A DNA stretch of 64,000 nucleotides from Aradus depressus (Eukaryota > Arthropoda > Insecta > Hemiptera > Aradidae). The notes beneath the pieces were generated by a model. That model made no database searches. It saw only the letters and a list, made by a program, of their open reading frames with translations, and was not told where the DNA came from. The DNA lies in assembly GCA_963662175.1 (NCBI GenBank), contig OY759221.1:34594045-34658044 (forward strand). Reading direction: 5' to 3'. The position numbers were made by a program, and so were the translations under genes. This document shows positions 9,073 through 51,095 of the stretch, piece by piece. Position 1 is the first letter of the stretch; each line of letters starts with the position of its first letter.

Positions 9073-9113
9073 TTAACTACCGGTTTAAGCATTACACCAA
9101 CTTCAGGTTTAGT
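9073..9113 (-). ncRNA. Hammerhead-like motif, ACCGGT class (decayed)
   Basis: On the reverse strand: AAC, CTGAAGT (core, last base changed), a helix II-like segment, TAAA (expected GAAA), then ACCGGT, A and GTT. The predicted helix III word ACCGGT is self-complementary and AAC/GTT can form helix I. Two core changes make activity unlikely. A related decayed copy is at 16666-16705. Confidence 0.4.
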
Positions 9114-9544
9114 TATAATCATTGACAAGTTGCTGAGAGCTGCCAACTTTGGTTTGAACCGAATGACCTTAATTCTGCACTCAGACCGTACTTGGCCTGC
9201 GGTTTAGTTGGGTAACATGACATTAACTATGCAAGTCTTAACCGCACTGTAAAGGTGCAATTAATAACCACGAGCCACTAAGATTAATGCAGCGGTTGCT
9301 GCCTTTGACAAGTTAAGGAACTACTTTCTTTAGTCATAGCGTCCGTTGTATCTTGTAATATGGATCATTAATTCTCAGAGCTAATTTCTTCAAGTCTGTT
9401 TTCGCGTGAATCAAGCAAACGGCGAAGAAGTGGGTTGTCATTTTAGGACGTACTCTACGTATTTTTCTTGGGAAAAATGTATTTTCTATAAAATGTCCCG
9501 TTACGTTTTCTCTACAAATTTTTTTGAAAGGATTTTCGATTGTC

Positions 9545-9915
9545 CTAAATATTAGCGATATTTAATAATAAATTTATTTCCGTTAAACCAATACATGGTA
9601 ATAGGTAAGTTAGTCATTGAGATAAATTTATAAATTAGATGTATAACTACTTGAGTCTAACACATATATGATTAGTCGTAATAATAAAACTATTAAAGAA
9701 AGTAAAATGAAATTAATAAAAACTTAACAAATAAATACTTAAAAATATATGAGTATATAAAAAAAATTAAAACAAGATACGTTTATAATGAGAAGACATA
9801 TTTTTCAATTTAATAAAAATTAAGATAACTATTTTACAAAAAAAAAAAACTCTTCGGAAGTGTCTTTATCCCAACGATGTTTCGGGACGTTCTTACGTCC
9901 CATCATCAGGTCCCA
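9545..9915 (-). repeat. Repeat T with hammerhead-like motif
   Basis: Reverse copy of T. The (ATT)n and 'ttatttccgttaaacca' end is at the left, and the hammerhead-like motif is at the right (9879-9910). It is an uninterrupted version of the sequence that is split by piggyBac and an R1 LINE at 25065-28175, so it serves as the empty-site reference. Around 9700 it reads 'atgaaattaataaaaac', where the other copy carries the piggyBac insertion. Confidence 0.7.
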
Positions 9916-9918
9916 CTG
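9870..9918 (-). ncRNA. Hammerhead-ribozyme-like motif (ACGT class)
   Basis: Reverse strand: GAC, CTGATGA (core), a perfect helix II stem GGGACGT/ACGTCCC with a four-base loop, then GAAAC. The bases after the core read ATC then GTT. Compared with the copy at 31968-32006, ACGTC has become ACATC, as expected from CpG decay. Helix I would be GAC/GTT. Activity would need dimer formation, because helix III is only a four-base self-complementary word in the inferred ancestor. Confidence 0.6.
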
Positions 9919-9922
9919 AAAA

Positions 9923-10011
<89 letters not shown>

Positions 10012-10024
10012 TATATATATATAG
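9919..10024. repeat. (AT)n microsatellite
   Basis: About 100 bp of nearly pure AT dinucleotide repeat. Confidence 0.95.
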
Positions 10025-10072
10025 ATTAATCTATTATAAATGAATATATAAAAATACTAAATAAAGTCCTAA

Positions 10073-10225
10073 ATTTTGCCTACCCTAAACTTTTTTTTAT
10101 TCACCTAGGGGTCTTTAACGAGTACCTGACGTCAGACAGGCTCAACACCATGGATTAACGTCCTATCCGAAGGACGGTGTGCTCAAGGTTTTTCATCTCC
10201 CAGATAAAAAATCTAAGGCTCACGG
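10073..10225 (-). repeat. SINE1 fragment
   Basis: Reverse central SINE1 block ('gtcctatccgaaggacgg', 'catctcccagataaaaa'). Both ends are truncated. Confidence 0.7.
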
Positions 10226-10229
10226 TACG

Positions 10230-10545
10230 ATCAGTTCAGTACGAACAATTCAGTTGTTCTTCCTCTTAAAGGAGTTGAGCTTGGAGTTGAAGTCTCCGTG
10301 ACCTGATAGTACTGGGGCGTTGGTTACTGAACTTCCGGGAAATATGCATAGTTCGGTCGGCCATCCAATGATCGTGACCACCGCTATTCCCATTTCTTCA
10401 CAATCCATTTCTGGTCAATGTCTTTGCAATGGTCTGATCAGGACTGTCCGCGCATCTCTTCCTCCAGACGCAAGGGTTCATCTATATCTGCTTCTAAAGA
10501 TTGCGTATACAGAAGAATATAGAAAGTATATGAAAGTAAAATAAG
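10230..10545 (-). mobile_element. LINE-A C-terminal relic
   Basis: The reverse strand encodes 'LSGHGDFNSKLNSFKRKNN', the conserved motif before the zinc knuckle of I/Jockey/R1-type ORF2 (compare 'LTGHGGF' at 27478-28068). The same words occur near 55590 on the + strand, so both are copies of one LINE. Stops interrupt the frame. Confidence 0.6.
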
Positions 10546-11044
10546 TTACATAGACAATTAAAGGTTAAAATATAATTCAACCCAACTAATTATGTAATTC
10601 CAAAAATAACATTCACCTTTAGGCTGCGGTTAAATCAGCCCTATTGCAAAGATCAGAAAAGAGGGGGTGGAAATGAAATTGTGAAATATTTTCGTTTTCT
10701 GACAAATAGAAACAATTGATAACATTTTCTCAAGGTCTTTTTTTTGAAGTGTAATGTTGGCTGCACCTTTGCCAAGGGCATTTAGTCTGTGTCAAGAATA
10801 GCAACAGAAATCCGTACATTGTTATTTTTATACGTAATTATGTATGTTATTAAAATAATATGCTTGAGAAATCAGAAGTCATTATGGCATTTTCCTTATG
10901 GCGTTTTCTTTCACCTAATTACTTAAGTGTGGAGAATCTCTTAGAGACATCTTGAGTTCAAATAGTGCTTTGTGATTGCTTATAAATAGCAGTTTAGAAA
11001 AAAAAAAAAAAACCAATTGATCGTTTGAGTAAATCAATAGTTGA
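10546..11044. other. No gene recognised
   Basis: AT-rich, with an A run at 10998-11012. I see no coding or repeat family here. Confidence 0.5.
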
Positions 11045-11320
11045 ATTTTAAATCCTCACAGTAAATTTTGTGTCGATACATTCATTACATCGGCAGGTAT
11101 TAGGATTTTCGTGTTCCTCTTCTTTGTATCCTCCCTTCATTTATGCCGATTCTCCTAAAAATTATTATGTTTCGCCCTTATGGGCCTCTGGCTACAATGT
11201 TGTGGCAATACATTCATTACAACTGCAGCCATTAGAGTTATTGTTAAGCCCCCATCTAATCCCCCCTTCTCTTTAGGCGATTCGCCTGAAAATCAATACC
11301 TCCATAAAATTTTACCTCCA
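11045..11320 (-). repeat. Repeat R fragment
   Basis: Reverse R with two 'atacattcattac' modules (about 11077 and 11209), 142 or so bp apart, plus 'ccccccttctctttaggcga'-type sequence and 'gaaaatcaatacc'. Confidence 0.55.
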
Positions 11321-11380
11321 AGATTGAACATTGAGTAAAAACTTGTTTCAAAGTTTTTATGTAGGCCGTGAGGCATCGCA

Positions 11381-11502
11381 AATTTTGCATACCCTAAATT
11401 TTTATTCACCTAGGATAGAGGTCTTTAACGAGTGACATCGTATTGTTCGGGACCATCGCTTAACATCCCATCCGAAGGATGGCGTCCTTAAGTTTATTTT
11501 AA
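11381..11502 (-). repeat. SINE1 fragment
   Basis: Reverse central SINE1 block ('attcacctaggatagaggtc', 'catcccatccgaaggatgg'). No head or tail is present. Confidence 0.7.
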
Positions 11503-12406
11503 TTTTTATGAGCTGATTTGTATCAGTTTTCCCATCCACCCTGGAGTTCGGCGTTCCCCATACAGCCTGGACTGGTCCAGAGGTAGGTAGACTTCTTTAT
11601 TTGTTTCTCCTAATTGCAGAGCTGCCAAGGACAACCAATCCAGTCCTCGGACGGGAACCCTGCTCTTAACGGAGTTACTATTTTGGAGGTTGCATTTAAC
11701 TTGCATAACCAGCTCAAAGGTTAAATTTGCATCTATACTGCAATATAATTGGTTACTTCAACCCATTCACACATAAAGAATACAAAATTCTGGGGGTATT
11801 GAGGGTCAGTCAATGAAGAAAATACTATTCAAATGCCAACGTTTCGATATATTTCATATCATCATCAGGGCCTAACAAACATGGGGGTATCAAGATTAGA
11901 AAAATATAATGGGTGATCGATTAAAATTATATATAGGTACATAAATATACATTCACTCATACAACTCCACATAAATACATATATACATCCTAATACATTC
12001 ACATACATATACACATTGATGAACAACAAGGAAACTTACTATGAATATAGATGGTTGAGGAGAAGGCATGAAGACTGTGAGGTCTTACGTTCAACTAAGG
12101 GTACAGAAGGGTCGAGGGTAACAGATAATAAATCCGGGGAAAACCCCAGTTAACGGGACTTAAATTTGAAGAGAACTACTTACTGGCTAACAGATATTTT
12201 ACTATGTTGAGAAAAAATAAAATAAAATAAAAACTCTATAATTATATAAATAGTAACATAATTTAACTTATTAATTAAATGAAGAACTTTAGACAGAAGT
12301 GACACTAACCGAAAATGAAATAATACATAATAAAGAATAAATAGACACACAATGAAATTAATCTAAATTTTAAATATTAAATATAATTGGAGACAGAACT
12401 ATGGAT

Positions 12407-12827
12407 TCAGCAGTTTTGAAGCAAATTGGCATAAATGTTGCTCAGGTTATTGGTATCAGTGCGAAAATTGACAGTATTTGAGGTTTTGGCAATATACACC
12501 ATTTCCAGTGTCAGCCTTTTATAGTAATTGATTTCTCTGTCGAGAATTTTGGTGTTAGCGAAATCAAACTTATGTTTGTTCAGGCTATGGTGTTTGATTA
12601 GGGCGCTGCAATTATCGGAGTCAGTTTTTGTTCTACAATCATACTCATGCTGGTATAATCTCTTTTTTAAATATTGAGATGTCATAAGATGATGAACAAT
12701 CTGAACAGGGTATCTGATAGATGAGGTCAGACTGGTTGTTTTTTGGGGTAGGTTCTTTAATTTGGTATGATACCCCCATGTTTGTTAGGCCCTGATGATG
12801 ATATGAAATATATCGAAACGTTGGCAT
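12407..12827 (-). pseudogene. GIY-YIG endonuclease domain of a Penelope-like element
   Basis: Two overlapping frames. The upstream one holds 'SDLIYQIPCSDCSSSY', the GIY half with the C-x2-C of Penelope GIY-YIG domains. The downstream one holds 'TSQYLKKRLYQHEYD' and '...SALIKHHSLNKHKFDF', the arginine/histidine helix and the following H. Where the second motif (Y-I-G-Q-T) should be, a small deletion or frameshift leaves only Y and TSQ. The nuclease is therefore broken exactly at its YIG motif. In live elements this domain nicks target DNA for reverse transcription. Confidence 0.85.
12788..12825 (+). ncRNA. Hammerhead-ribozyme-like motif (ACGT class)
   Basis: GCC, CTGATGA, a helix II hairpin (GATAT...ATATC with a short loop), GAAAC, then GTT and GGC. 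Helix I would pair GCC with GGC. Helix III is the self-complementary ACGT, with cleavage predicted after the T following it. Identical motifs occur at 11835-11873 (reverse) and in both arms at 15132-15734. Confidence 0.65.
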
Positions 12828-13074
12828 TTGAATAGTATTTTCTTCATTGACTGACCCTCAATACCCCCAGAATTTTGAATTCTACAGTCGCTAGCAAACA
12901 TCTATAAAGAATACAGTTAAGGAATAAAGTTCATTTCTTTAAAACTTCAAGAGGGCTTTCTAATTTTCAACTTCTTAGTTGTGGAACATTGTAATAATAA
13001 TAGAAGAGAAGTCTAAGAAAGAAATATATTTTATATTTATTTACGTTTTTATTTTAGTTTTATTTATTTTTAGA

Positions 13075-13410
13075 GGGTTAGGTTAGGTTAGGTTTTATGA
13101 CTCATGCCCGGGCTTTAACTACGAGGTCATATCGCCTACTACCAGAGCGCTCTCTCGTCACTCTGGTGGACATGAGCCCGACTAAATTTTGCCTATCCTA
13201 AATTTTTATTCATCTAGGGTAGGGGTCTTTAACGAGTACCTGACATTGTACAGGCTCGGGACCATCGCTTAACGTCCCATCCGAAGGACGGCGTGCTTAA
13301 GTTTTTTTTACCTCCCAGATAAAATAAACTAATGGCCTCGGTCGGGTTCGAACCCACGACCTTGAGCTCAGAAGTCAAGCACGCATACCACTGAGCTACC
13401 GGCGCCCTCC
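13075..13410 (-). repeat. SINE1 full-length copy with target duplication
   Basis: Flanked by 12 bp duplications 'tttatttttaga' (13063-13074 and 13411-13422). On the + strand it begins with three TTAGG-like units ('gggttaggttaggttaggtt'), so the SINE tail in sense is (CCTAA)n. The tRNA-like head is at the right. Clean duplications indicate LINE-type insertion. Confidence 0.92.
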
Positions 13411-13504
13411 TTTATTTTTAGATGTTTTTAGTATTTTTTAAAAAATACATAAGAATCTTATCCCTTATCGTATGTATCCTTATATTTAATGTTTTTTTTA
13501 TTTC

Positions 13505-14245
13505 CCCAGCTTTTATGAAATGTAGGAGAAGTTATGTAATCGGTTGGAAATTCGAAGTTAATTTTTTACCAGAATTGCATGTTCTCTCTGTGTGTGTCTT
13601 TGTTTGAGAAGAACAGAGGGAGGTTTAAACCAAAAACTCCAATAATTGCGGATGTAATGAATTTACCGACTCAAAATTTAGTATGAGGATTTAGAAACCC
13701 CTTTGTTAGTCAACTTTTAGTTATTACCCCCATACATTCGGTTGGTTTTGGAGGAGCAGCGAAAATTTAGTTGATTAAATCATTCTGGGGAAGTACATTG
13801 CCGGTGATTAGATTCGTATTAATGAATTGACTTATGAAATTTCGTGTCAATACTTTCATTATAACGACATCCACAGCTATTATGACTGACAACCGTAAGT
13901 AAAGATAAATATCTATTTTGGCTGGTCTTAACCTTGAAAACTTTGATAACTATTTATTATTTGTAATGAATTTATCCATACAAAATTTAGTATGAGGATT
14001 TAGTAATTTAGTATGAGGATTTAGTAATTTAGTATGAGGATTTAGTAATTTAGTATGAGGATTTAGTAATTTAGTATGAGGATTTAGTACGAGGATTCAG
14101 TAATTTAGTATGAGGATTTAGTAATTTAGTATGAGGATTTAGGAGTCTCTATTGAATATTAGCTCAGATGATCGCCTCGTTTTGTAGAGGGAGCGAAAAG
14201 TTAATTGATTAATTCGGTCTGGGGAAGAATGTCTTCCCACTTTTA
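13505..14245 (+). repeat. Repeat R with an internal minisatellite
   Basis: Forward R starting at 'aggagaagttatgtaatcgg' (near 13524) with its modules and ending near 'ctggggaagaat'. Inside, at about 13985-14145, the 20 bp word 'aatttagtatgaggatttag' is tandemly repeated seven to eight times. This is a local expansion of a module that occurs once in other R copies (for example near 49888). Confidence 0.65.
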
Positions 14246-14610
14246 TTCCTTTTTTTTAAGTTTGCCCCATTTCTCAACTTAGATAAACGTCGTATCAGCT
14301 GCAGTGATTATTAGAACGGGCTATCTACAGGTTACCTTCATGTCCTTCTGTCGGTAGGTATATAAAGGATCAAACTAGTGAAAGACAAAATGGAGAGCGT
14401 CCTTGCCCGGCCCCGCCCGAGTTACGTCACTCAGGTGAAATGTTACCTGTCCTCCCCACCTCTCTCTGCTCCGTCTATCGACATTGATGTCTGTTTTAAC
14501 AATATCTAGGCCCTTCTTGATGTAAGCGTTATAAGAGTTCCTGTATTGGTTCATCTCACTAGCCTAATGTCCTAGCTTGACAATAAGCCCCTCTCCGTGA
14601 TCCTTATAAA
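14246..14610. other. No gene recognised
   Basis: Sequence of higher GC than its surroundings between repeat R and a split SINE1. There is no recognisable coding region. Confidence 0.5.
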
Positions 14611-14638: not shown

Positions 14639-15131
14639 TAAGGTGACCATCCGTCCCGATTTTTTCGGGACAGTCCCGATTTTTGAGGTTGGGTCCCGAA
14701 ATTTTTAGACGGCCGTTTGTCCCGAATTTAGGTGTGGGATTGTCATTTCAACAAAAAATTTCAACTATCCAACCAACCTCTCGGCATAATCCAAGCGAGT
14801 TGCATTATGGGATACCATGGGGCAAATAATCAACATTACGAGTGATACAATTGAGAAATAAATGGAAAGAGTTGAAAACTCTTCCTCAAAAAAAATGGGT
14901 TTGAGATCTTCACTCACTTTAGTAAAAACTGTGTTCCAAGTTCTAATATATTAAAGGTTGCTGAATTTGTGCTTTGCCTTCCCGGAACAAATGCACCAAC
15001 TGAAAGACTTTTTTCTTTAATGAACGATTTATGGTCACCAGAAAAAACTCGATTAACAGTCGACACTTTAAAATCAATTTTAGTTACAAAAGTCAACTTT
15101 AATATGTCCTGCCAAGACTTTTATAAAATGT

Positions 15132-15734
15132 AGATGTTTGCTAGCGACTGTAGAATTCAAAATTCTGGGGGTATTGAGGGTCAGTCAATGAAGAAAATAC
15201 TATTCAAATGCCAACGTTTCGATATATTTCATATCATCATCAGGGCCTAACAAACATGGGGGTATCAAGATTAGAAAAATATAATGGGTGATCGATTAAA
15301 ATTATATATAGGTACATAAATATACATTCACTCATACAACTCCACATAAATACATATATACATCCTAATACATTCACATACATATACACATTGATGAACA
15401 ACAAGGAAACTTACTATGAATATAGATGGTTGAGGAGAAGGCATGAAGTCTTCATGCCTTCTCCTCAACCATCTATATTCATAGTAAGTTTCCTTGTTGT
15501 TCATCAATGTGTATATGTATGTGAATGTATTAGGATGTATATATGTATTTATGTGGAGTTGTATGAGTGAATGTATATTTATGTACCTATATATAATTTT
15601 AATCGATCACCCATTATATTTTTCTAATCTTGATACCCCCATGTTTGTTAGGCCCTGATGATGATATGAAATATATCGAAACGTTGGCATTTGAATAGTA
15701 TTTTCTTCATTGACTGACCCTCAATACCCCCAGA
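15132..15734. mobile_element. Palindromic Penelope-like terminal insertion
   Basis: Bounded by a 15 bp target duplication 'acttttataaaatgt' (15117-15131 and 15735-15749). The insert is an almost perfect head-to-head inverted repeat with arms of about 280 bp meeting at about 15449. Each arm equals the terminal sequence of the element at 11785-12903. No coding sequence remains. Each arm carries a hammerhead-like motif (15210-15246 reverse, 15651-15688 forward). Confidence 0.9.
15651..15688 (+). ncRNA. Hammerhead-ribozyme-like motif (ACGT class)
   Basis: GCC at 15652-15654, CTGATGA at 15655-15661, a helix II hairpin to 15677, GAAAC, self-complementary ACGT, then T (predicted cleavage site) and GGC at 15685-15687 pairing with GCC. 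All invariant core positions are present. The mirror copy in the left arm is on the reverse strand at 15210-15246. Confidence 0.65.
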
Positions 15735-16267
15735 ACTTTTATAAAATGTTAATTTCAAACAAAACCTTGCTAAAAAAATTCATTCACCTGAAAAGTACAA
15801 TGCCTAATTTATGTAACTATTTAACCAGTTTTATTTATACTTAAGCAACATATCAAGAATTTTTGTTGTATTTTTGTGTGTATTTAAATAATTAAAAAAT
15901 AATTTAATTTCTTACAATTCACAAATCTCTTATCTAAATTATAAAACAAAATTATCTTCATCACATAGCCTTTCTATTCTGTACATATTTTCCTTATTAT
16001 TATTAATCTACGCCTATCCAAATTAACCCGCAAGGATCCCCACAGACCTGCATCCATCAGGCATCCATGACCCTCGTGGTCGAAATGCCTTAAAGAAGAG
16101 AAAAAAAAAAATAAATAAATAATTAAAAAGTTCATTAAGACTCATTAATGATAATAAGGTGTATGTTATTTTTATTATTAGGATTTAATGTGGTAATGAG
16201 GGGGGGGGGGGGGAGGTAATTATTTTGGACCGTACTGAATTCTGTTCTAAAAAATATGGTCACCTTA

Positions 16268-17524: not shown

Positions 17525-17831
17525 AGGTTAGATTAGATTTTATGACTCATGCCCGGGCTTTAACTACGAGGCCATATCGCCTACTACCATAGCTCTTTCA
17601 TCACTCTGGTGGACATGTGCCCGACTCTACTGTGGGAGTCCTAAATTCAGCCTACCCTAAATTTTTATTGACCTAGGGCAGGGGTCTTTAACGAGTACCA
17701 GACATCGTACAGGCTCGGGACCATAGCTTAACCTCCCATATAAAATAAACTAAGGGCCTCGGTCGGGTTTCGAACCCACGTTCTTGAGCTCAGAAGCTAA
17801 GCACGCATACCACTGAGCTACTGGCGCCCTC
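17525..17831 (-). repeat. SINE1 copy
   Basis: Near-complete reverse SINE1 with a TTAG-type tail at the left and the tRNA-like head 'gagctactggcgccctc' at the right. The central 'ccgaaggacggcgtgc' block is deleted. Confidence 0.85.
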
Positions 17832-23274: not shown

Positions 23275-24077
23275 CATTAGACTCTCCCTTATCCGGCGCT
23301 CTGTTAACCGGCGAGCTCCCTTATCCGGCGCTCGCAAAATAATATCTTGGTTAAACTAAAATTAACATTCAATTATTAGATTATCTATTATATGAGCCAC
23401 GTGTATTTACGAGCACGTATTCGTAACTCACGAATCTTTTATGAATTTTTATTGTACATACATACATATGTACATTGTATTTATAATGAAGGGAACGCTG
23501 ATATAGTGGTCTTTTTTTTTAAATCATCAAGTTATAAAGTGATAAAACAATGACTTCCACTTCAAAAATAAGGAAAATTGTTCTTTCCATCCAACAAAGA
23601 TTGACGGCAATTGAAAGGATGGAAAAGGGAGAAACAGCTGCTAAAATAGCCAAGGAATTAGGGGTTGGTGAGAGTACAGTTAAAAATTGGGGGAAAAGTA
23701 AAGAAAAATTGAGGAAATTTGGTTCTAGTGTACCTTTGGAAAAACAACACCTCAATGCCAGATCAACTTTAAAGAAACCAAATTATAGGAACTTGACAAG
23801 GCAGTTTGGATGTGGTTCGTGCAGCAACGCCACCTAGACTGCCCTAGAAGTGATGTCATTTTAAAAGAAAGAGCCATTTCATTGAATCAAAGCATGAATG
23901 GGGATCCCACATGTGAAATACATACCTGTTTTATACCTTAGCTCACCTAAAAACACTTTTTTTTATACTTTAATTGATACATTTTTTCTCATTAATTGAT
24001 GATTTCCGTTATCCGGCGTTTTCTGTTATCCGGCGTCACGTCGGTCCCGGCAACGCCGGATAAGGGAGAGTCTACTG
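23275..24077 (+). mobile_element. Pogo-like element, internally deleted
   Basis: TA duplicated at both ends (23273-23274 and 24078-24079). The terminal inverted repeats contain 'agactctcccttatccggcg' at the left and its complement at the right. Extra copies of 'ttatccggcg' lie inside each end (left at about 23319, right at about 24008 and 24028), probably transposase binding sites. The interior keeps only the DNA-binding part of the transposase. Confidence 0.88.
23550..23935 (+). pseudogene. Pogo/CENP-B-type transposase, DNA-binding half
   Basis: Residues 1-60 form a CENP-B N-terminal helix-turn-helix: 'QQRLTAIERMEKGETAAKIA', then 'KELGVGESTVKNW'. After about residue 80 a frameshift moves to a frame with 'AVWMWFVQQRHLDCPRSDVI' and 'LKERAISLNQ', which is the Tc5-type second helix-turn-helix. 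The DDE nuclease is deleted. Elements of this kind gave rise to host genes such as CENP-B and jerky, but this copy is broken. Confidence 0.85.
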
Positions 24078-25241: not shown

Positions 25242-27164
25242 CCCTCTAATGGTAAGGTGAACTTTTGTAACGCATACGGTAAGATGGGGTCTGTATGGAC
25301 CCCACGTGTATTTCTTATAATTTCGGGTTTACTTAAAGCACTTACATCAAAAAACATAATTAATGGTCTTAGTTGACGTCAACCCATGAAAAAAATAGGT
25401 TATTAGAAAAAAAAAAAAAAACAAAAAAAAAACTAATTGATAAAACTATAATTTTTTTTTTTTTTTTTAATGTAAAAAGATCATTATTTGAATTAGTTTC
25501 ACAACACAAGTATTAAATAATAGAATAGCTAACATGCTTCACACATCTAGGTAGGTAGCTAAAAAGAATAATAATATTAATAGAAGAAAATAAACTTATT
25601 CAGGAACAATTTGGACTAGAACAAAAAAAGTGATAGTAAACTAAAGATGCAACTAATAATCACAATAATCACAATAATCACAATTGGAGCACAAAGTTGT
25701 TTTTATACAGTCCTATGACTGCCAGATAAACTTTCATGGCAGTTGGTGCAGGTTTCAATACTCTTTCTGTCCTTCGCGCGAGGACAAAAAGTGATAGTAA
25801 ACTAAAGATGCAACTAATAATCACAATAATCACAATAATCACAATAATCACAATTGGAGCACAAAGTTGTTTTTTTTACAGTCCTATGACTGCCAGATAA
25901 ACTTTCATGGCAGTTGGTGCAGGTTTCAATACTCTTTCTGTCCTTCGCGCGAGGACAAAAAGTGATAGTAAACTAAAGATGCAACTAATAATCACAATTG
26001 GAGCACAAAGTTGTTTTTTTTACAGTCCTATGACTGCCAGATAAACTTTCATGGCAGTTGGTGCAGGTTTCAATACTCTTTCTGTCCTTCGCGCGAGGAC
26101 AAAAAGTGATAGTAAACTAAAGATGCAACTAATAATCACAATTGGAGCACAAAGTTGTTTTTTTTACAGTCCTATGACTGCCAGATAAACTTTCATGGCA
26201 GTTGGTGCAGGTTTCAATACTCTTTCTGTCCTTCGCGCGAGGACAAAAAGTGATAGTAAACTAAAGATGCAACTAATAAAATCACAATTGGAGCACAAAG
26301 TTGTTTTTTTTACAGTCCTATGACAGCCAGATAAACTTTCATGGCAGTTGGTGCAGGTTTCAATACTCTTTCTGTCCTTCGCGCGAGGACAAAAAGTGAT
26401 AGTAAACTAAAGATGCAACTAATAATCACAATTGGAGCACAAAGTTGTTTTTTTTACAGTCCTATGACTGCCAGATAAACTTTCATGGCAGTTGGTGCAG
26501 GTTTCAATACTCTTTCTGTCCTTCGCGCGAGGACAAAAAGTGATAGTAAACTAAAGATGCAACTAATAATCACAATTGGAGCACAAAGTTGTTTTTTTTA
26601 CAGTCCTATGACTGCCAGATAAACTTTCATGGCAGTTGGTGCAGGTTTCAATACTCTTTCTGTCCTTCGCGCGAGGACAAAAAGTGATAGTAAACTAAAG
26701 ATGCAACTAATAAAATCACAATTGGAGCACAAAGTTGTTTTTTTTACAGTCCTATGACTGCCAGATAAACTTTCATGGCAGTTGGTGCAGGTTTCAATAC
26801 TCTTTCTGTCCTTCGCGCGAGGACAAAAAGTGATAGTAAACTAAAGATGCAACTAATAAAATCACAATTGGAGCACAAAGTTGTTTTTTTTACAGTCCTA
26901 TGACTGCCAGATAAACTTTCATGGCAGTTGGTGCAGGTTTCAATACTCTTTCTGTCCTTCGCGCGAGGACAAAAAGGTTATTGAAACGTAAGGTGGGGTC
27001 TGCGGCGACCCCAGAGTCGGACACGTGAATTGCAAGCGAGATTGAGATGAAAGGGGTAAGTAGCTTACCTGAGACTTGCGGTCGGTCTGGATGAGTTCCC
27101 TAGAAGGTACGTAAAGTAAACAACAGTTTGGGGTCCAAAAATACCCCACCTTACCATTTGAGGG
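25242..27164. mobile_element. PiggyBac-like non-autonomous element
   Basis: Duplicated TTAA at 25238-25241 and 27165-27168. Terminal inverted repeats start CCCT: left 'ccctctaatggtaaggtg', right (reversed) 'ccctcaaatggtaaggtg'. 'ggggtctgta' with 'accccac' near both ends forms subterminal motifs. No transposase frame was found. Most of the interior is a minisatellite. The empty site is visible in the paralogous T copy near 9700. Confidence 0.9.
25619..26970. repeat. Minisatellite, 144-146 bp unit, nine copies
   Basis: Unit boundaries at 'gcgcgaggacaaaaag' fall at about 25781, 25952, 26096, 26240, 26386, 26530, 26674, 26820 and 26966. Spacing is 144-146 bp except for one unit of 171 bp, which carries extra 'aatcac' repeats. 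Units are nearly identical, including an 8 T run, so the array is recent or homogenised. Two units have an extra 'aa' after 'ctaat'. It is confined to the piggyBac element. It is not a CRISPR array, because there are no short repeats with unique spacers. Confidence 0.95.
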
Positions 27165-29640: not shown

Positions 29641-29683
29641 TGGGGCTCATGTTCACCAGAGCTGAGAAGAGCGCTTTGATATA

Positions 29684-30321
29684 CAGGGTGGCCCAGATAA
29701 GCGGGCCACAAGTGAAATAACTCCTAAACGGTTAGAGATATTAAAATTGTGCATAGGACTAAAGTTGTAGCACTCGCAGAGACCTATAGTATGGCGTCCT
29801 CGAAAAGACAAAAATGACCCTTTTAATGGCTCAAATAGCCCTTCGAAGGGCGGGGTTCCCTTTTGACCCTTAAGTTTCATTACATTTTATTAAAGTACTA
29901 ATGAAACAAGGAAGAACTGTGCAAACAGATTTTTGATACGTCAAATAGTTCTCGGAACAAAAACGTTTAAAGTTGCACATTTTTCTTATTCTGAAGTTAG
30001 TTGGAATTTAATAACTTCAGAATAAGAAAAATGTGCAACTTTAAACGTTTTTTTTCCGAGAACTACTTGACGTATCAAAAATCTGTTTGCACAGTTATTC
30101 CTTGTTTCATTAGTACTTTAATAAAATGTAATGAAACTTAAGGGTCAGAAGGGAACCCCGCCCTTCGAAGGGCTATTTGAGCCATTAAAATTTATGTTTT
30201 TTCGAGGACGCCATTCTATATCTCTCGGCGAGTGCTACAACTTTAGTCATATGCACAACTTTGATATATCTAACCGTTTAGGAGTTATTTCACTTGTGGC
30301 CCGCTTATCTGGGCCACCCTG
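29684..30321. mobile_element. Palindromic MITE with long inverted repeats (Tc1/mariner-like ends)
   Basis: Two arms of about 310 bp are near-perfect inverted copies meeting at about 30000. The outer ends read 'cagggtggcccagataagcg' and its complement, each next to TATA, consistent with a TA duplication. The ORFs in each arm are mirror images of each other, not genes. The host sequence looks like a SINE1 tail ('gggctcatgttcaccaga' at the left). Ends starting CAGGGTG-GCCC at TA are common in Tc1/mariner MITEs. The transcript would fold into a very long hairpin. Confidence 0.88.
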
Positions 30322-30404
30322 TATATGAGATGAGTCACGAAGGGCAATAACAACTTGTATTGGAATCGAACATTTGATGTTATATCACACTTAGTTGAAT
30401 AGAG

Positions 30405-31800: not shown

Positions 31801-32325
31801 TTTTTTTCATTGTTCAAAAATAGTGAAATAACCATAATAAAAAAATCTTGTTTTATATTCAAAAATATAATTTTTTTGGCAGTTCCTCCACAGATAGCCT
31901 CCTTTAAGGTCTGAAGAAATATTATAATTGTTACTGTTATTTTTAATAATTGTTATTGTTATATTTAGACCTGAGGATGCGACGTGAGAACGTCCCGAAA
32001 TGTCGTCGTGAAAAGACACTTCCGGAAAAGTTATCAAAAAATATTATCTTAATTTCAATTTAATTTTTAAAAAATACCTATAAATACTGTATTTATTATA
32101 AACTTTACCTCTGCATAAAATTATTATTTTCGTACTCATTTTTTCAAGTATTTATTTATTAATTTCTTTTTCTTTTTAGTACTATTCTTATCTAATCTTA
32201 TCTAAGAGTTAATATCTGTTTAAATATCTAAATTATAAACTATCTTAATGTAAACATTCTTAAGACGTATCCTATGACCATGTTATGGTTTAACGGAAAT
32301 AAAAGTATTATTATTATTGTTATGA
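31801..32325 (+). repeat. Repeat T, forward copy with hammerhead-like motif
   Basis: The hammerhead-like motif at 31968-32006 is followed by 'gacacttccggaaaag', an AT-rich body, the T module ('gagttaatatctgtttaaat', 'gacgtatcctatgacc'), and the end 'atgttatggtttaacgg' plus (ATT)n. Confidence 0.7.
31968..32006 (+). ncRNA. Hammerhead-ribozyme-like motif (ACGT class)
   Basis: GAC, CTGAGGA (N7 is free in hammerheads), helix II GACGT/ACGTC with a short loop, GAAA, TGT, C (predicted cleavage site) and GTC. Helix I pairs GAC with GTC perfectly. The helix III word is ATGT, one transition from ACGT. Confidence 0.6.
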
Positions 32326-33511: not shown

Positions 33512-34012
33512 CCGTTTCCACTGCTGGAAGGACCCTGAGAACTCGTCTTCTGGAATGCTGTTCAGCTCCTCCTGCGATTTTTCTTTAATTTCGTCAGTTG
33601 AGTGAAATCTCTGCCCTTTTAAGGGTAACGGAAACAGGAAAAAGTCCGCAGGGGCCAGGTCTTCCTGACAAACCTGAACTCGGTATTCTTTTTGATCCTC
33701 GGTCAACAGTCTCGGGACATAATTTGGCACCACTCGGCGCATCTGCACTTGTTCAGTTAAAATTTCTTGTCATGAGCCAAATGAAATGATCCATTCCTCT
33801 GCCATTTCACGGATGGTTAGTCGACGATTTGATCGCACAAGAACGTTCACTCTGGCAACAAGATCATCGTGAGTCGAAGTTGATGGGCATCCTGAACGAG
33901 GATTGTCTTCTAACGATGCTCCGCCTTCTTTGAACCTCTTATACCACTCATAATATTCATTCCCAAAAGCCTCTTGCAACATCTGAAAAGTTTCTGTAAA
34001 AGTTTTACCCAA
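33512..34012 (-). pseudogene. Mariner transposase with the catalytic core deleted
   Basis: The upstream frame (33770-34012) has the mariner helix-turn-helix: 'YYEWYKRFKEGGASLEDNPR', 'SGCPSTSTHDDLVARVNVLV', 'RSNRRLTIREMAEE'. The next frame (33500-33748) begins 'MRRVVPNYVPRLLTEDQKEY', the linker before the first catalytic Asp. It then jumps at 'VCQEDLAPADFFLFP' to the 'D-L-A-P-A-D-F-F-L-F-P' word, which holds the third acidic residue. The first and second catalytic aspartates are therefore lost by an in-frame deletion. A frameshift separates the two halves. Confidence 0.88.
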
Positions 34013-34589
34013 CTTTACACAAAACTTGACACAAACGCTTTTCTTTTTGATTCATTTGACAAAAGATCACAAAATAGCCTAACATGAGAAACTTTTCATA
34101 AAAACGTCTGTTACTTCACAACAAAGTAGGTTGTAGAGAATCTAGAAAAACAGCTGAGCTCAGAAAGAGTTACAACTAATGCTGCCAACCGTACCGCTCT
34201 CAATCCAAAAAGTCCTGGAACTTTTTGATCACCCCTCTGTGCTTGCTACAGGTTATTTCACCTCCCATATCAAAAAGCTAAAGTACTCGGCTATATAAGA
34301 GTAATACCTGGCAAATAATATTTTTTAAGCAGATTATATCTGCTTGAAAATATCATGAATACAGTGTATGTAAAATATAGTGATGTTTAACGATGATTTT
34401 AAAATCATCACTTTCAGAAAAATTATGAAGTTGAAAGTTCACGAGGTCAAAGTTCATTTATCTTCTATATAATAAAACTTTCATTTCACTTTAATCTTTT
34501 ATTTTTTAAATGTTTTTTTTTGTGTTTTATATTCTCCCATGATAACCAGGAAGAATGGGCTTAATTAACCATCCTCCCTTCTGAAAAAA

Positions 34590-36397: not shown

Positions 36398-36556
36398 ATT
36401 TCTTCATGGTAGGCGGAATACAGATGTATCAATCTAACTATACATTTTATTTTTACCACAACTAGTTTCGGAAATTTGCCATCTTCAGGTGGTGATACTA
36501 GTTGTTGTAAAAATAAAATATATAGTTGGATTCATACATCTGTATTACTCATTTAA
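36398..36556 (-). mobile_element. Hairpin element with hammerhead-like loop
   Basis: An inverted repeat with arms of about 50 bp (36416-36466 and 36496-36547) encloses a 30 base loop. The arms and loop together contain a full hammerhead-like core on the reverse strand (36455-36493). Flanked by a near-identical 10 bp duplication. No coding sequence. It resembles a minimal Penelope-type terminus. Confidence 0.8.
36455..36493 (-). ncRNA. Hammerhead-ribozyme-like motif (ACTAGT class)
   Basis: Reverse strand: ACCAC, CTGAAGA, helix II (GG...CC with an AT loop), GAAA, CTAGT, T (predicted cleavage site), GTGGT. Helix I pairs ACCAC with GTGGT over five base pairs. The helix III word ACTAGT is fully self-complementary. 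All invariant core positions are present. Helix II is weak (two to three pairs). It is the best helix I match in the window. Confidence 0.65.
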
Positions 36557-45309: not shown

Positions 45310-45759
45310 TATAGTCTCTCATCAGAGCGTGTCTCGTTGATGTCCATGCGTGTATGTGTTGGCCGGTTGCGCGCGCAGCGCACACACACAACTACACACT
45401 TCTTTATCTGTGAGTCAGCTGTTTTTGAGCATTTCTTTTGTATTTTTACAACATTATTGATCATATTTACCGTTGTAGAGAATTTAACTAAAATATCAAT
45501 ATTACGAACTATAAAATGATCTTTCGGTAAGAAACTTTTAGGTTAAGATGCTTCGATAGCTTAAATTTGTCACAATAAATAAAATTTGTGGTAAAAGAAA
45601 ATAATATAGGAGTGTGAATCTAGAAAAATATAATATATAATATTTCAATATATGTATTATTTTATAATAAGTTATTAATATATAATAATAACTGCTAAAA
45701 ATATCGATCAATAAATAATATATTTGTTGTACAAATAATATAATGTTTTTACCCATTTT
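45310..45759. other. No gene recognised
   Basis: AT-rich with a CA-rich stretch near 45380. No feature is seen. Confidence 0.5.
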
Positions 45760-45860
45760 AGGAGATACCGAACAGCTTGGAGGTGGGACCGAAAGTTAAT
45801 AGATTAATTCGTTCTGGGGAAGTACATTCCTGGTGATTCACCGACGACTTTTTTTAAATA
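45760..45860 (+). repeat. Repeat R end
   Basis: 'gggaccgaaagttaatagat', 'ctggggaagtacattcc', hairpin 'ggtgattcacc', then 'gacgactttttttaaatat'. It is the clearest example of the R 3' end. Confidence 0.6.
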
Positions 45861-46534
45861 TTTTTCTTTAAATTTCATTTCAGTTAAATTTAGTATTTTA
45901 GAAGCTAATTTATCCACAATCGATCGTGTTTTTTTAGTTTCTTTCAAATAAATGTGAAGTGAAAAATGTCGCTTATTCAACTAACCAGTCTGATTTTTTT
46001 TTATATTCGTCCGAAATGTCTCTATTTATGGCTGATACTAGGAAAACAATGAGTGCCATGAAAATGAATTTCCAAAGAGAGGGTTGTGGAGCAGCTGAGT
46101 GGGTTATGTTAGTTGTGAGTTGCAGTACAAGGTCAGATCATGTCGTGACAGTACAGTACTGAATGTACTGCAGCCTGCAGCCTTGTGACACACCCTTCTT
46201 GGACTGCTCCAGATACAGTTCTTCTTACCATTCCTTACCATCTGGTAGGGCAGACTGCCCATGGCACAGAATAGGCCAATATTTCATTTGTCAATTAATT
46301 ATTTTAAATTATTGCCTAAATTCATGAACGCTTAAATGTTGGGTACATGAAAAATTCTGAGTACCAGAAACCGATCAAACCAATTATTATATATAAAAAT
46401 CGTGCGGCTTGATCGTCTATATCGATCCAAAGACACAAAAACGTTTAGTTAACTTTTCAATAGGGCTCGAGTGGGCCCTAAAGACAATCAATGAAAACTG
46501 ACATTATTGCAGAGATATTGTGAAATCATTCAAA

Positions 46535-46795
46535 TGAACTTGAAAGAAATAAAACTTGTTTATTTATGATATTGTCTAATTTCACCAACTATATTTACAT
46601 GGGAGTACTTTCGGTATTTCTACCATCCTCAGCCAAAAGCATAAGAGATAAGACTGATTATCTCTTATTAAGATTGTCTTATCTCTTATGCTTTTGGCTG
46701 AGGATGGTAGAAATACCGAAAGTACTCCCATGTAAATATAGTTGGTGAAATTAGACAATATCATAAATAAACAAGTTTTATTTCTTTCAAGTTCA
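46535..46795. mobile_element. Palindromic Penelope-like element with two hammerhead-like motifs
   Basis: Arms of 120 bp (46535-46654 and 46676-46795) are almost identical inverted copies around a 21 base loop. Each arm holds a hammerhead-like motif and then 'ggtgaaattagacaatatc', a string shared with other Penelope-type ends in this window. No coding sequence. Confidence 0.85.
46692..46733 (+). ncRNA. Hammerhead-ribozyme-like motif (AGTACT class)
   Basis: TGG, CTGAGGA, perfect helix II GGTA/TACC with a GAAA loop, GAAA, GTACT, C (predicted cleavage site), CCA. Helix I pairs TGG with CCA. The helix III word AGTACT is self-complementary. The mirror copy is on the reverse strand in the left arm (46598-46637). 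Decayed relatives: 50371-50410 (reverse) and 50988-51027 (forward). Confidence 0.65.
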
Positions 46796-47075
46796 TTCTA
46801 AAGATAATCGTCCTTCCCCATTTTCTGTTACTATCCCTCCTAAATCTGTGGAGCAGCTGGGTGGGTTATGTTAGTTGTGAGTTGCAGTACAAGGTCAGAT
46901 CAAAATTCTGAGTATCAGGAACCGATCGAACCAGTTATTATATATAAAAATCGTGCGGCTAGATCGTCTATAACGATCCAAAGACACAAAAACGATTCAA
47001 TAGGGCTCGAGTGGGCCCTAAAGATAATCGTCCTTTCCGATTTTCTGTTACTATCCCTCCTAAATATCTATTGTC

Positions 47076-47607
47076 CTTTTCCTGCATAATTTCGAAAAGT
47101 ATACATTCAGACTAAGGTAGCTCTACAGTACAGACGTAGCCTACTATGCCAATTATCCTGAGATCAGATCAGAGTTTTTAGCTTTAGGTATGGTATTATT
47201 TAAGATTAGGAAATAACTGATGACCTTTCGAGCCTCAAACGCCAATTCCTATTTCAAATACTACTCTTTGTTGATAGATACAAATTTGATTCAGATAGAT
47301 ATCTAGGCAAGGTAGGGTACATATGGTTTTCTACATCACTTTTACTTTTGCGAACGTTCCAATTGTGGAAGTAGGTCAGGGAACTTGTTCTTAACTCTTT
47401 CATAATTCTATCCAATCACAAATAAATTTTTATTTTATTTAACATTTAAATGTCCCCTCCCCTTGCTATAAATTGCAACTGGGTATAATTGCATAGGACA
47501 ATATTTATATTTAAGTCTTTCGAAAATGTTCTGCCACTCTTAAAACTTCGTAATTATTTACTTGCACTTTCTCGACCTAACATAAAAGATTTGTTCAACT
47601 TCCCCAC
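47076..47607. other. No gene recognised
   Basis: I see no coding or repeat family. Confidence 0.5.
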
Positions 47608-47697
47608 TTATACAATGTATAGGAGAAGTTATATAATCGGTCGGAAAATTGATGTTGAGTTTTCACCGGAATTTCATGTTTTTCCGACCCCCTGATT
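47608..47697 (+). repeat. Repeat R start
   Basis: 'aatgtataggagaagttata', 'atcggtcggaaaattgatgt', 'ttttcaccggaatttcatg'. It is cut by a SINE1 tail. Confidence 0.55.
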
Positions 47698-47760
47698 TGA
47701 GCGCTTTGGTAGTAGGCGATATGACCTCGTAGTCAAAGCCCGGACCTAAGTCATAATAAC
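47697..47760 (+). repeat. SINE1 tail fragment
   Basis: 'gagcgctttggtagtaggcg', 'atatgacctcgtagtcaaag', 'taagtcataataac'. Confidence 0.75.
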
Positions 47761-47767
47761 TTATATA

Positions 47768-48810
47768 TACAGGTTGTTCATTCGGTCTTGACCCAGGTAA
47801 ATAACTCGAAAAATAATGATTTGAAAATTTTTAACGTTTTGATGAATTTAAAAAAAAAATTTTTTTGACCAACTTTTTTTTTTTTTGCATATTTAGATTC
47901 CTGGGAAAAAAATTAAGGGGAGGTTAAATGAGATATTTTTTTTTTAGACTAATATTAATGAATTGTATTGTAGTGAATGTTCGAACTGATGTCCTGCAAT
48001 TTCAATACGTTTATCGAAGTTGTTCCGGAAAATTTCTCAAGGTTCTAGGATTTCTGTTGGTAGTGTTCATAAAATATTGAAGAACGATAAATTTCACCCT
48101 TACCATATTTCTCTTCATCAAACTCTATCTGGTGGAGATTCTAATAACGGTGTTATATTCCGTCAGTGGGCACGTGTACGAGTTAAAGTTAATTGTGATT
48201 TTTTTCGGTACACAATGTTTTCAGACGAATCAACTTTCACCAATATTGGATTAGTAAATAGGCATAATATGCATTACTGGAGTGCAGAAAATCCTCGCTA
48301 GTTTCGTCAAATGAATAAACAACATCCATGGTCAGTTAATGTATGGGCTGTAATCATCAATGACAAAGTAATTGGTCCTTTTTTTATCGACGGAAATTTA
48401 AATGGTCAAAAATATCAAGACTTTCTTAATAAAAAATTACCTTGAGCAATTTTCCTGAACAATTTCGATAAATGTATTGAAGTTGCAGAACATCAGTTCG
48501 AACATTTACTACAATAAAATTCATTTATTGGTTTAATATTGGTCTAACAAAAAAATGTCTCATTTAATCTCACCTTAATTTTTCTCCAGGAATCGAAATA
48601 TGCAAAAAAAAAAAAAAAAAAAAAAGTTGACAGTCAACAATTTTTTTTAAAATTCATAATAAACGATAAAAATTTTCATTTGTTTAAAAATTAAATTACA
48701 GCAAATAATACGGTCAATTCTACTCTACATTTTTTGTCTCAAGCATTTTTTGAGAAAATCATTATTTTTCGAGTTATTTACCTGGGTCAAGATAAAATGA
48801 ATACCCTGTA
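47768..48810 (+). mobile_element. Tc1/mariner-type element with long inverted repeats
   Basis: TA at both sides (47766-47767 and 48811-48812). Inverted ends 'gacccaggtaaataactcga' (left) and its complement (right). The inverted similarity continues inward for roughly 260 bp on each side. A + strand transposase relic lies between. Confidence 0.85.
48029..48445 (+). pseudogene. Tc1/mariner-superfamily transposase fragment
   Basis: Frame: 'SVGSVHKILKNDKFHPYHIS' (helix-turn-helix to linker), 'NNGVIFRQWARVRV', 'YTMFSDESTFTNIGLVNRHN', 'MHYWSAENPR', a stop at 48299, then 'PWSVNVWAVIINDKVIGPFF', 'IDGNLNGQKYQDFL'. The 'F-S-D-E' aspartate and the 'N-V-W-x-x-I' word are typical of the catalytic domain. 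The N-terminal helix-turn-helix and the C-terminal acidic residue are missing, and the internal stop shows decay. Confidence 0.82.
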
Positions 48811-48979
48811 TAGGGGAAGTATGTAATAGGTCAAAAATTCGATGCGGATTTTTCAACGGAATTTCATGTTTACCGACGTTCTAGTTCCAAAAATGAAAAA
48901 AAAAAAATTATTTGTATGTGTGTCTGTGAATATGATAACTCCCGATAGAATGAAAATGATGTTGATTTTCAGTCAAATT

Positions 48980-49015
<36 letters not shown>
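48811..49015 (+). repeat. Repeat R start with (AT)n
   Basis: 'tataggggaagtatgtaata', 'aaatgaaaaaaa', 'gataactcccgatagaatga', then an AT repeat at 48978-49015. Confidence 0.6.
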
Positions 49016-49019
<4 letters not shown>

Positions 49020-49547
49020 ATATTCATCAAGACCAATCATACGATAAGTTGCATTTTTTTAAAATTACCACTGCACGACGGCTGACTATTTTAACATAAC
49101 GGTCTGGAGTTTTCCTGATACTTAATCGGCGCGGACCCTCTTCTCCGGGACTTGACTCTTGAGGAACCCTGCCTTCTGAAGTGCTCCTCGTGGCCTTGGG
49201 GTCTCTGACCCCGCCCCCCAGACACACACACACATACAGACGGACCTTCACATACACTAGATGGAGGTTCAACACCCACATATTCAGATAACCAGACAGA
49301 CATTATATACCGGTTTCTGTTCCAGGATTAAGTACTCTTTTATTGGTACTATATACTTCTTCTTCGTATTTCCTATACAGGACTTAACTACATCTTAGCA
49401 TATTTTATGTCTTACATTTGATTAGGTATTATCATTTATTTATGCTTTTTATAGGATTTCATAGGTCATTGACTATCTTCAAAGTCCGTAAGTATAATGA
49501 AGTTTGTGCTAACAACAGTCTGTCCCAATGGTTTATGAAGTGGAAAG
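49016..49547. other. No gene recognised
   Basis: The overlapping reverse frames at 49027-49303 have no domain and are low in complexity. I see nothing to annotate. Confidence 0.5.
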
Positions 49548-50030
49548 GGCGCCAGTAGCTCAGAGGTTTTACTGCCCCAGCAATACGAAGTATAGGGGAA
49601 GTTATGTAATCGGCCAAAAATTCGATCCAGAGTTTTCAACGGAATTTCATGTTTACCAATCTCCTAGTTCCAAAAATGAAAAAAAAAAAAAAAAAAATCT
49701 TTCTGGATGTGTGTTCATGAATATGATAACTCCCGATAGAATGAATGTATCAGCACAAAATGTTAATATATATCCTGAACCCTCTAAGGACGACACTTAT
49801 TGTTTTTCAGCCAAATCGGCCAATGGGGGAGGTTTAACTGAAAAAAACTCTAATAACTGCCGTTGTAATGAATGTAGTGACACAAAATTTAGTATGAGAA
49901 TTTAGAAGCCACTATGCAAGTCAAATATTGCGTTTTAGCCCAAACAGTCGATTGGCTTTGGAGGGAGAGTGAAAACTTAATTGATTAATTCTTACTAGGG
50001 AAGTACATAGCCGGTAATTTATAGAAGAAT
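49548..50030 (+). repeat. Repeat R, most complete copy, preceded by a SINE1 head scrap
   Basis: 49548-49568 is a SINE1 head scrap ('gcgccagtagctcagagg'). R then runs from 'gccccagcaatacgaagtat' and 'aggggaagttatgtaatcgg', through 'gataactcccgatagaatg', 'aatgtatcagcacaaaatg', 'ggacgacacttattg', 'tttttcagccaaatcggcc' and 'aatgaatgtagtgacacaaa', to 'ggagggagagtgaaaactta' and 'tactagggaagtacatagcc'. Length is about 460 bp, with no ORF. Confidence 0.7.
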
Positions 50031-50034
50031 TTTG

Positions 50035-50180
50035 TTATCTAGGAGGGAAAACAACCTTGAGCACGCCATTCTTCGGATAGGACATTAATCGATGGTCTCG
50101 AGCCTGTGGCAATTTCTGGTACTCGTTTAAGACCCCACCATGACGTTATACTTAAAAAGCCCGGGCATGAGTCACGAAAA
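50035..50180 (+). repeat. SINE1 copy, strongly deleted
   Basis: Forward body 'aggacattaatcgatggtct' and tail 'agcccgggcatgagtcacga', with the head and middle missing. Confidence 0.7.
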
Positions 50181-50317
50181 GAACTACAACCACAACTAGG
50201 AGTGAGGGCATCTTCAAATAAATAAAAATTGATATAACAATCCGATTTCAAGTTTGCTTAAAGATCGTTATATTCGAAATATAATGTTAATCTATTAAAA
50301 ATCTAGAACTAGGAAAC

Positions 50318-50556
50318 GATAAAAAGTAAAGAAAAATGTATGTTTTAAAAAAGATTGTCTCACAAAATATATGGTAGTACTTTCAGTATTGCTACCATCT
50401 TCAGCCACGACTTAACAAATAATAGCTAACATTAATACCATAGAAAACATTAACAGACTCATTAAATTTATTACCAAATCAAAAATTGAATTATAGGATC
50501 AATGGACTCCTACATACTCGCTCCGGCTTTATAGGACTACAATTAGTCTTACGGCA

Positions 50557-50610
<54 letters not shown>

Positions 50611-51095
50611 TAAATGGAAGTTCAACCAGTTTACAATCCCAACTGACCCTTTTCAGCCTCCACTGGATTTTTCCCTGTCCCTTTCTCCTGTAAAGTCTTA
50701 AAACCTTGAAAAACATTTAAAATAAAATTTCGTCTCAAATAGAAAACTTACCAATAAAGGAAAACGTACACGTACTTTTTTTGTATATGTACTTTCTTTC
50801 TTAAAACTGTATATTTATTATTGTCATCTTTGATTTATTTGATATATTTGTATTTTAATCAACACTGATACTATTTGAAATTTTCCTTAGACGAAATTTT
50901 ATTTTTAATGTTTTTCAAGGTTTTAAGGTTTTTGAGGGACAATTCGGAGTGTTAACTTGTTGAACTTAATTTAGTATTTGTTAAGTCTTGGCTGAAGATG
51001 GTAGCAATACAGAAAGTACTTCCATATATTAGATATATTTGTGAAATAGATAATTTTTAAAAAACATACGTTTTTATTTACTTTTTATGGTCCAA
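50318..51095. mobile_element. Inverted-repeat element with terminal hammerhead-like motifs
   Basis: Outer arms of about 100 bp (50318-50420 and 50985-51095) are inverted copies, each with an AGTACT-class motif. A second, inner inverted pair occurs at about 50700-50745 and 50880-50925 ('aaaacatttaaaataaaatt' and complement). An A run of about 47 lies at 50561-50607. No coding region. It fits a decayed Penelope-like element with opposed termini. Confidence 0.7.
50988..51027 (+). ncRNA. Hammerhead-ribozyme-like motif (AGTACT class)
   Basis: TGG, CTGAAGA, helix II GGTA/TAC(A), GAAA, GTACT, T, CCA. Core positions are intact, and helix II has one mismatch. The opposed copy at 50371-50410 (reverse) has CTGAAGA, GGTA/TACT, GAAA, GTACT, A, CCA. 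Confidence 0.55.

Follow-up and report, generated by a model that had tools for sequence, protein, structure and literature searches.

Minimal type I hammerhead ribozymes are known in thousands of copies, some of them in the pseudo-long terminal repeats (pLTRs) of Penelope-like elements (PLEs) (Cervera & de la Pena 2014; Lunse, Weinberg & Breaker 2017, as cited in PMC7761336 and PMC6466107). In the passages of the two citing papers, action as a dimer is given as possible or reported, a palindromic stem III together with a tandem arrangement being needed for it. The stretch of Aradus depressus DNA under study (64,000 nucleotides of contig OY759221.1, called the window here in its full length) carries eleven sites which, judged by their sequence, are genuine hammerhead signatures of this already described kind, that is, minimal hammerheads carried by PLEs. 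Most probably (roughly 90%), they would be minimal type I hammerheads in the pLTRs of PLEs, mostly present as 5'-truncated inverted copies, in which cleavage at H17 would depend on pairing through a short helix III word and the layout would stem from priming on both target strands.

The likeness to the published minimal PLE hammerheads comprises the type I architecture, a helix III that is absent or reduced to a self-complementary stretch, the pLTR location, and the thousands of copies; compared through the citing passages, the present motifs differ in being mostly inverted and in having words of up to 8 bases. With Penelope of Adineta vaga (PMC3846280) the elements share an open reading frame (ORF) with reverse transcriptase (RT) and GIY-YIG domains, inverted pLTRs, a one-sided tail, and palindromes at the junction. 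According to the available part of that paper, target duplications measure 8-10 bp and one inverted pLTR bears a 31-bp tail, whereas 11-15 bp and a one-sided extension of 20-47 nt are found here; the same part makes no mention of a hammerhead (0 occurrences). Poseidon PAc of Anolis (PMC11167929) is a PLE with a hammerhead, and its tail corresponds to the sequence lying between two start points of reverse transcription. Its copies are described as tandem and its hammerhead needs protein, while the present motifs are known from sequence alone. In the axolotl, again from the accessible portion of the report (PMC7229834), in HHR_Amex1 a palindromic tetraloop closes a helix III of just one base pair, formally like the 6-base words, and in HHR_Amex2 a tetraloop closes one of two base pairs, formally like the 8-base words; both are more active as dimers, and the retrozymes carrying them differ in being short non-autonomous tandem repeats. 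The kind of motif, its link to PLEs, and the dimer idea are already published. The present case differs in that the layout is predominantly inverted, without a second sense copy per insertion, and in that several palindromic words exist in parallel; among the papers listed by literature searches none was recognised as describing either point, the two principal papers being known through citations only. With several parallel families of minimal PLE hammerheads in one genome, most of them having their own self-complementary word, it becomes possible to test the dimer idea by setting words against copy number and insertion structure.

Scanning of the window with CTGANGA(6-30)GAAA gave 20 matches, compared with 3.87 expected and a maximum of 10 in 100 shuffles. 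Two of the matches are alternative ends of one site, and seven (22777, 33580, 41235, 44715, 51475, 53052, and 55455) were removed by eye as chance matches, none of which is recovered by the strict descriptor described below. Eleven sites keep the core CTGANGAT, helix II, and GAAA, namely 12792, 15655, 31971, 46698, and 50992 on the plus strand and 9880, 11842, 15217, 36466, 46609, and 50381 on the minus strand; the conserved core CUGANGA...GAA, the A15.1-U16.1 pair, and H17 are present at each of them. All eleven have an extra T (U) between CTGANGA and helix II, and a viroid hammerhead with an extra nucleotide in its core is the topic of a title cited in PMC6155905. The strict descriptor (helix I of at least 3 bp, helix II of at least 3 bp, a palindromic word beginning with A, H17 not G) found seven matches in the window and none in 200 dinucleotide shuffles. 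They are the four ACGT copies, both sites at 46.6 kb, and 50381(-), and since they derive from about three families they are not seven independent events. Missed by the descriptor are 31971 and 9880, with the words ATGT and ACAT and in the former also a helix II mismatch, 36466, where the third pair of helix II is broken in this copy, and 50992, where the end pair of helix II is broken.

The first-pass annotation of the window had reported at least ten hammerhead-like sites belonging to several families, and this is borne out by eleven sites with distinct words and helix I strands, of which 11842(-), 15217(-), and 46609(-) had not been listed. The helix I partners given there (GCC/GGC, TGG/CCA, ACCAC/GTGGT, GAC/GTC, and AAC/GTT) are all correct, and the descriptor search it had suggested agrees with it (7 matches versus 0/200 shuffles). 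Its four words ACGT, ACTAGT, AGTACT, and ACCGGT are indeed palindromic, but of the four sites assigned to ACGT only 12788 and 15651 stand; 31968 reads ATGT and 9870 reads ACAT, non-palindromic words that are each one CpG-type change away from ACGT and that, in what is called family E here, are probably decayed ACGT. The ACCGGT site placed at 9073 has a broken core and GAA (CTGAAGT ... TTAAACCGGT) and resembles a decayed copy of an ACCGGT family. No support was obtained for the diversity of classes being the notable part, as had been held; the window contains relics of about six families, and the abundant group has already been described.

The source assembly (698 Mb, 74 contigs) was searched with reversed patterns as controls. 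For CTGANGA(6-30)GAAAC, 38,610 matches were obtained, and 6,364 for its reversed counterpart; three fixed-length patterns gave 1,204 versus 97, 18,634 versus 139, and 3,928 versus 420 matches (9- to 134-fold over the reversed controls), and a further fixed-length pattern, D/G, gave 1,036 versus 0. The make-up of the families, for which the letters A to I serve as labels of this analysis, was taken from the first ~100 matches listed per pattern, all on contig C1. Families B and C have helix I TGG/CCA in common. Besides A to E, four families were found among these matches: F (ACCGGT, helix I GAC/GTT), G (ACCGGT, helix I AAC/GTA, 2 pairs), H (8-base word AGCCGGCT, helix I TGC/GCT, 2 pairs), and I (ACCGGT, helix I GTG/CAC). 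With the exception of the copies of family E, the families have palindromic words, 4, 6, or 8 bases long (ACGT, ACCGGT, ACTAGT, AGTACT, and AGCCGGCT). The 100 listed matches of the D/G pattern, which admitted four words only, two palindromic and two non-palindromic, comprise 81 with ACTAGT, 12 with ACCGGT, and 7 with a non-palindromic word, that is, 93/100 palindromes. As a separate observation, a family B pair recurs at intervals of about 65-77 kb and, once, of ~135 kb (C1 about 135000-689000), its distance to another motif being nearly constant, which points to a large segmental tandem array.

Helices I and II both covary between the families, as had been claimed for helix I, with the reservation that related copies inflate all covariation tests. 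In the listed D/G matches, helix II varies among GGCA/TGCC, GTCA/TGAC, and GCA/TGC, with GC, CG, and TA all occurring at one position; among the 50 distinct of the 100 matches, 129/150 cells pair, compared with a mean of 92 and a maximum of 113 in 5,000 shuffles. For the 100 listed matches of the 1,204-match pattern, one pair per helix (pair 1 in helix I, pair 2 in helix II, pair 2 in helix III) scores above every one of 2,000 shuffles; for the remaining six pairs the observed value was reached by 26 and 214 shuffles in helix I, 456 and 25 in helix II, and 2,000 and 15 in helix III. Families with the word ACCGGT differ in helix I, yet their strands match (GAC/GTT in F, GTG/CAC in I). Covariation is thus seen in helices I and II, if not at every pair, and helix III is represented by the palindromic words only.

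The layout was determined from 100 matches each of the 18,634-, D/G-, and 3,928-match patterns. Among the matches listed, two neighbours separated by less than 1 kb are inverted and directed outward in 25/28 (8 of the 25 sitting in an apparent single segmental array and not being independent), 14/14, and 9/9 cases, respectively, which makes 48/51 when pooled, with two on the same strand and one inward; for neighbours less than 3.5 kb apart the values are 28/34, 14/14, and 9/9. In a set of 43 matches taken by hand from the list of CTGANGA(6-30)GAAAC, the others being dropped, 10/12 neighbours less than 3.5 kb apart point outward and have similar core sequences; of the other two, one is on the same strand and one points inward. 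A tandem arrangement of two hammerheads per transcript is accordingly not what the listed neighbours below 1 kb display. Inversion places the second copy on the opposite strand, and therefore a tandem cis-dimer cannot form within such an insertion.

For a sample of 36 outward pairs from the fetched loci and the window, chosen as pairs, so that single copies lie outside it, exact target duplications of 11-15 bp were found in 19/36 pairs, versus 23/1,260 cross-locus flank comparisons. All 19 have 20-47 extra nt at one end and at most 1 at the other. By sequence, exactly one tail is present in 29 of the 36 pairs, none in 5, and two in 2. If each end acquired its tail independently, no more than half of the pairs would be expected to have one tail, and the probability of 29 or more of 36 is 1.6e-4, assuming independent pairs. 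Inverted pLTRs, a tail, and a target duplication, which are the hallmarks of PLE insertions, are hence combined here, and the excess of one-tailed inverted copies offers a clean genomic handle on PLE integration. The two-tail call at L050 depends on a match with 4 mismatches located beyond the duplication; L016 (C1:1681200-1683600) is the only clear insertion with tail sequence on both ends.

The identity of the elements was assessed from the ORFs of one element per family in A, F, and B. In L009 (family A) the ORF between the paired hammerheads matches GIY-YIG (3e-5, Pfam), and in L010 (family F) a single ORF matches both RVT_1 (2.2e-10) and GIY-YIG (2.4e-6). In L029 (family B), separate ORFs match GIY-YIG (3.9e-5 and 5.4e-5), and an RVT_1 match (2.6e-5, 24.4 bits) lies below the Pfam cut-off of 29.6. 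Because of these RT/GIY-YIG ORFs, families A, B, and F are assigned to the PLEs, in agreement with the link that the first-pass annotation had drawn.

As to the mechanism, two transcripts of the same family would pair through the self-complementary helix III word and would be cleaved at H17. Since U16.1 and H17 come from the partner in the dimer, helix I would also have to form between the strands. Target-primed reverse transcription would proceed from both target strands, each time starting in the pLTR/tail region, and the two complementary DNA (cDNA) products would be joined head to head to give a palindromic insertion. Inverted insertions whose two 3' ends point outward would be explained if both target strands were cut and extended by a PLE protein. 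In the available part of PMC11167929, a PLE protein is described to cleave and extend both target strands, the Anolis hammerhead cleaves only with its protein added, and the later steps of PLE integration are called not yet validated. It is conceivable, albeit rather improbable, that the words would act as dimerization-initiation sites comparable to the retroviral kissing palindrome, by which two template RNAs would be held together near the 3' region and loaded on a PLE protein dimer, both target strands being copied to yield a head-to-head, one-tailed insertion; if so, divergent words would keep the families from pairing with each other.

Several results weigh against word-paired minimal hammerheads in PLEs. 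The structure-aware scan of the window with Rfam, also put forward in the first-pass annotation, disclosed no hammerhead family even at E ≤ 1; the hammerhead models of Rfam require a closed helix III. The PLE membership of families C, D, E, G, H, and I would follow from the motif and, where seen, the layout. In the list of the 1,204-match pattern, which holds chance matches, only 30/100 have a 6-base palindrome; the family E word is non-palindromic in all three copies seen, and in families G and H helix I is limited to 2 pairs. Energy folding of seven families, in which the dimer was scored as a nested complex and tertiary contacts and protein lie outside the model, gave the dimer hammerhead as the minimum-energy form in 0/7; compared with two monomers, the dimer is better in D and H only, ties in B, and is worse in A, F, G, and I. 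The pairing of two copies to complete helix III, as proposed earlier, is therefore a putative mechanism, the dimer not being the minimum-energy fold in any family scored and the inverted layout barring a tandem cis-dimer within such an insertion. Finally, the Anolis PLE inserts in vitro without hammerhead cleavage (PMC11167929).

Concerning the origin of the two arms, few differences were found in comparison with re-pairings, and the arms therefore mostly share a source. In family B (17 pairs, leaving out L034 and the 50-kb pair of the window) the arms differ at 19 diagnostic places versus a random mean of 70, with 0/5,000 re-pairings as low, and in family F (10 pairs) at 7 versus 14.9, with 44/5,000 as low. 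Sharing of markers far beyond random pairing is also what self-priming (snap-back) of one cDNA, in place of two priming events, would produce; such self-priming is proposed in the available part of PMC3846280, and the L011 junction carries the short palindrome TTAGTT-CAT-AACTAA. This route has to be taken seriously, even if it is the less probable one: the ends begin at different places, with 20-47 extra nt on one side in each of the 19 pairs, L036 and L041 join arms of different subfamilies (L046 differs too but is decayed), and co-packaged transcripts of one locus would likewise yield matching arms. In L030 (C1:3262000-3262900), of family H, the arms differ by a 78-nt block beside the hammerhead, reflecting an indel or two template variants.

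The hammerheads might also be relics or structural RNA only, for instance for protein binding, and not ribozymes. The dispensability of cleavage for insertion in vitro (PMC11167929, in the part available) and the folding results would suit this view, which is nevertheless unlikely given that core and helix II are retained across families of otherwise different sequence and that the consensus words are palindromic in every family but E. A hammerhead likeness arising by chance in the inverted termini of non-autonomous DNA transposons (miniature inverted-repeat transposable elements) is hardly credible; palindromic elements with target duplications, one of which Rfam sees only as a sub-threshold microRNA hairpin, do bring such transposons to mind, but the RT and GIY-YIG ORFs already refute them for A, B, and F, and the unequal truncation in the middle, the one-ended tail in 29/36 pairs, and the covariation of helices across families speak against them. 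Very unlikely, too, are retrozymes, that is, non-autonomous hammerhead tandem repeats spreading as circular RNAs. The type I motif would fit, and the weak helix III with its palindromic loop recalls the axolotl motif, but retrozymes are described, in the accessible portion of PMC7229834, as short non-autonomous tandem repeats, while the neighbouring motifs are inverted (48/51 below 1 kb, among the matches listed) and three elements contain ORFs of the RT/endonuclease type, so that short tandem repeats without a protein ORF are not what is found. Minimal hammerheads in the pLTRs of PLEs remain the preferred reading for the elements collected in Table 1.

Table 1. Hammerhead motifs and associated insertions in the window (positions within the 64,000 nucleotides)
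Feature	Position	Strand	Remarks
Decayed ACCGGT-family motif	9075..9109	-	Core CTGAAGT, TTAA replacing GAAA; by eye versus family F
Hammerhead motif, family E, ACAT	9873..9912	-	Helix I GAC/GTT; core pattern, not descriptor
Family A target duplication, 12 bp	11773-11784, 12904-12915		ATAAAGAATACA; flanks 11785..12903
Family A PLE insertion	11785..12903	-	Inverted terminal copies, outward hammerheads, ORF relic between, tail at right end
Hammerhead motif, family A, ACGT	11835..11871	-	Helix I GCC/GGC; core pattern and descriptor
PLE endonuclease-region ORF relic, C-terminal	12410..12685	-	92/92 aa identical to GIY-YIG ORF of L009
Hammerhead motif, family A, ACGT	12789..12825	+	Core pattern and descriptor
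Family A target duplication, 15 bp	15117-15131, 15735-15749		ACTTTTATAAAATGT; flanks 15132..15734
Family A palindromic insertion	15132..15734		Two arms of 290 nt each with 100% complementarity, separated by 1 nt; tail at left end
Hammerhead motif, family A, ACGT	15210..15246	-	Core pattern and descriptor
Hammerhead motif, family A, ACGT	15652..15688	+	Core pattern and descriptor
Hammerhead motif, family E, ATGT	31968..32007	+	Helix I GAC/GTC, one helix II mismatch; core pattern, not descriptor
Hammerhead motif, family D, ACTAGT	36455..36493	-	Helix I ACCAC/GTGGT, broken third pair in helix II; core pattern, not descriptor
Family B probable target duplication, 12 bp	46478-46489, 46798-46809		One mismatch; flanks 46490..46797
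Family B palindromic insertion	46490..46797		Tail at left end
Hammerhead motif, family B, AGTACT	46600..46635	-	Helix I TGG/CCA; core pattern and descriptor
Hammerhead motif, family B, AGTACT	46695..46730	+	Core pattern and descriptor
Family C, older relative of B	50323..51090		Inverted ends; boundaries approximate, by eye
Hammerhead motif, family C, AGTACT	50372..50407	-	Core pattern and descriptor
Hammerhead motif, family C, AGTACT	50989..51024	+	Helix II end pair broken (GGTA/TACA); core pattern, not descriptor

The ORF relic of the first family A insertion belongs to a window ORF of 125 aa (12410-12784(-)), whose 92 aligned residues are all the same as in L009. Alone, this ORF has no Pfam match above cut-off; a sequence search of PDB gave nothing useful, and no relative was present in the viral contigs searched. 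The palindromic family A insertion adjoins a hAT relic (PF05699), the stretch 14876-15130 matching the hAT dimerisation region in Pfam. For the family C insertion neither a convincing target duplication nor the family B tail was found. The 3' flank of the family D motif is present in two inverted copies with the motif between them (about 36424-36547, judged by eye), and a reading of this motif as type III via a second, upstream ACTAGT was rejected for leaving only ~7 nt for helix I. The family E word ACAT occurs also in locus L018.

Matches to MIR6274 (46604-46726), mir-153, and mir-281 remain below the Rfam gathering score, lie on palindromes or hairpins, and are not regarded as microRNAs; the mir-153 match is drawn by a nested palindromic element at 29679-30326. 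Further relics in the window match the CENP-B N-terminal domain (23538-23834) and HTH_32 as well as, below cut-off, the Mos1 HTH (33773-34051), all in Pfam. From 25531 to 27013, about nine copies form an array in which they follow one another at intervals of 144-146 bp, one step being 171. A dispersed repeat is present in 11 copies of a 118-nt stretch (among them 8456-8573, 13088-13205, 17533-17650, and 62007-62124) together with adjoining stretches, its end appearing by eye to be tRNA-derived and like that of a short interspersed element.

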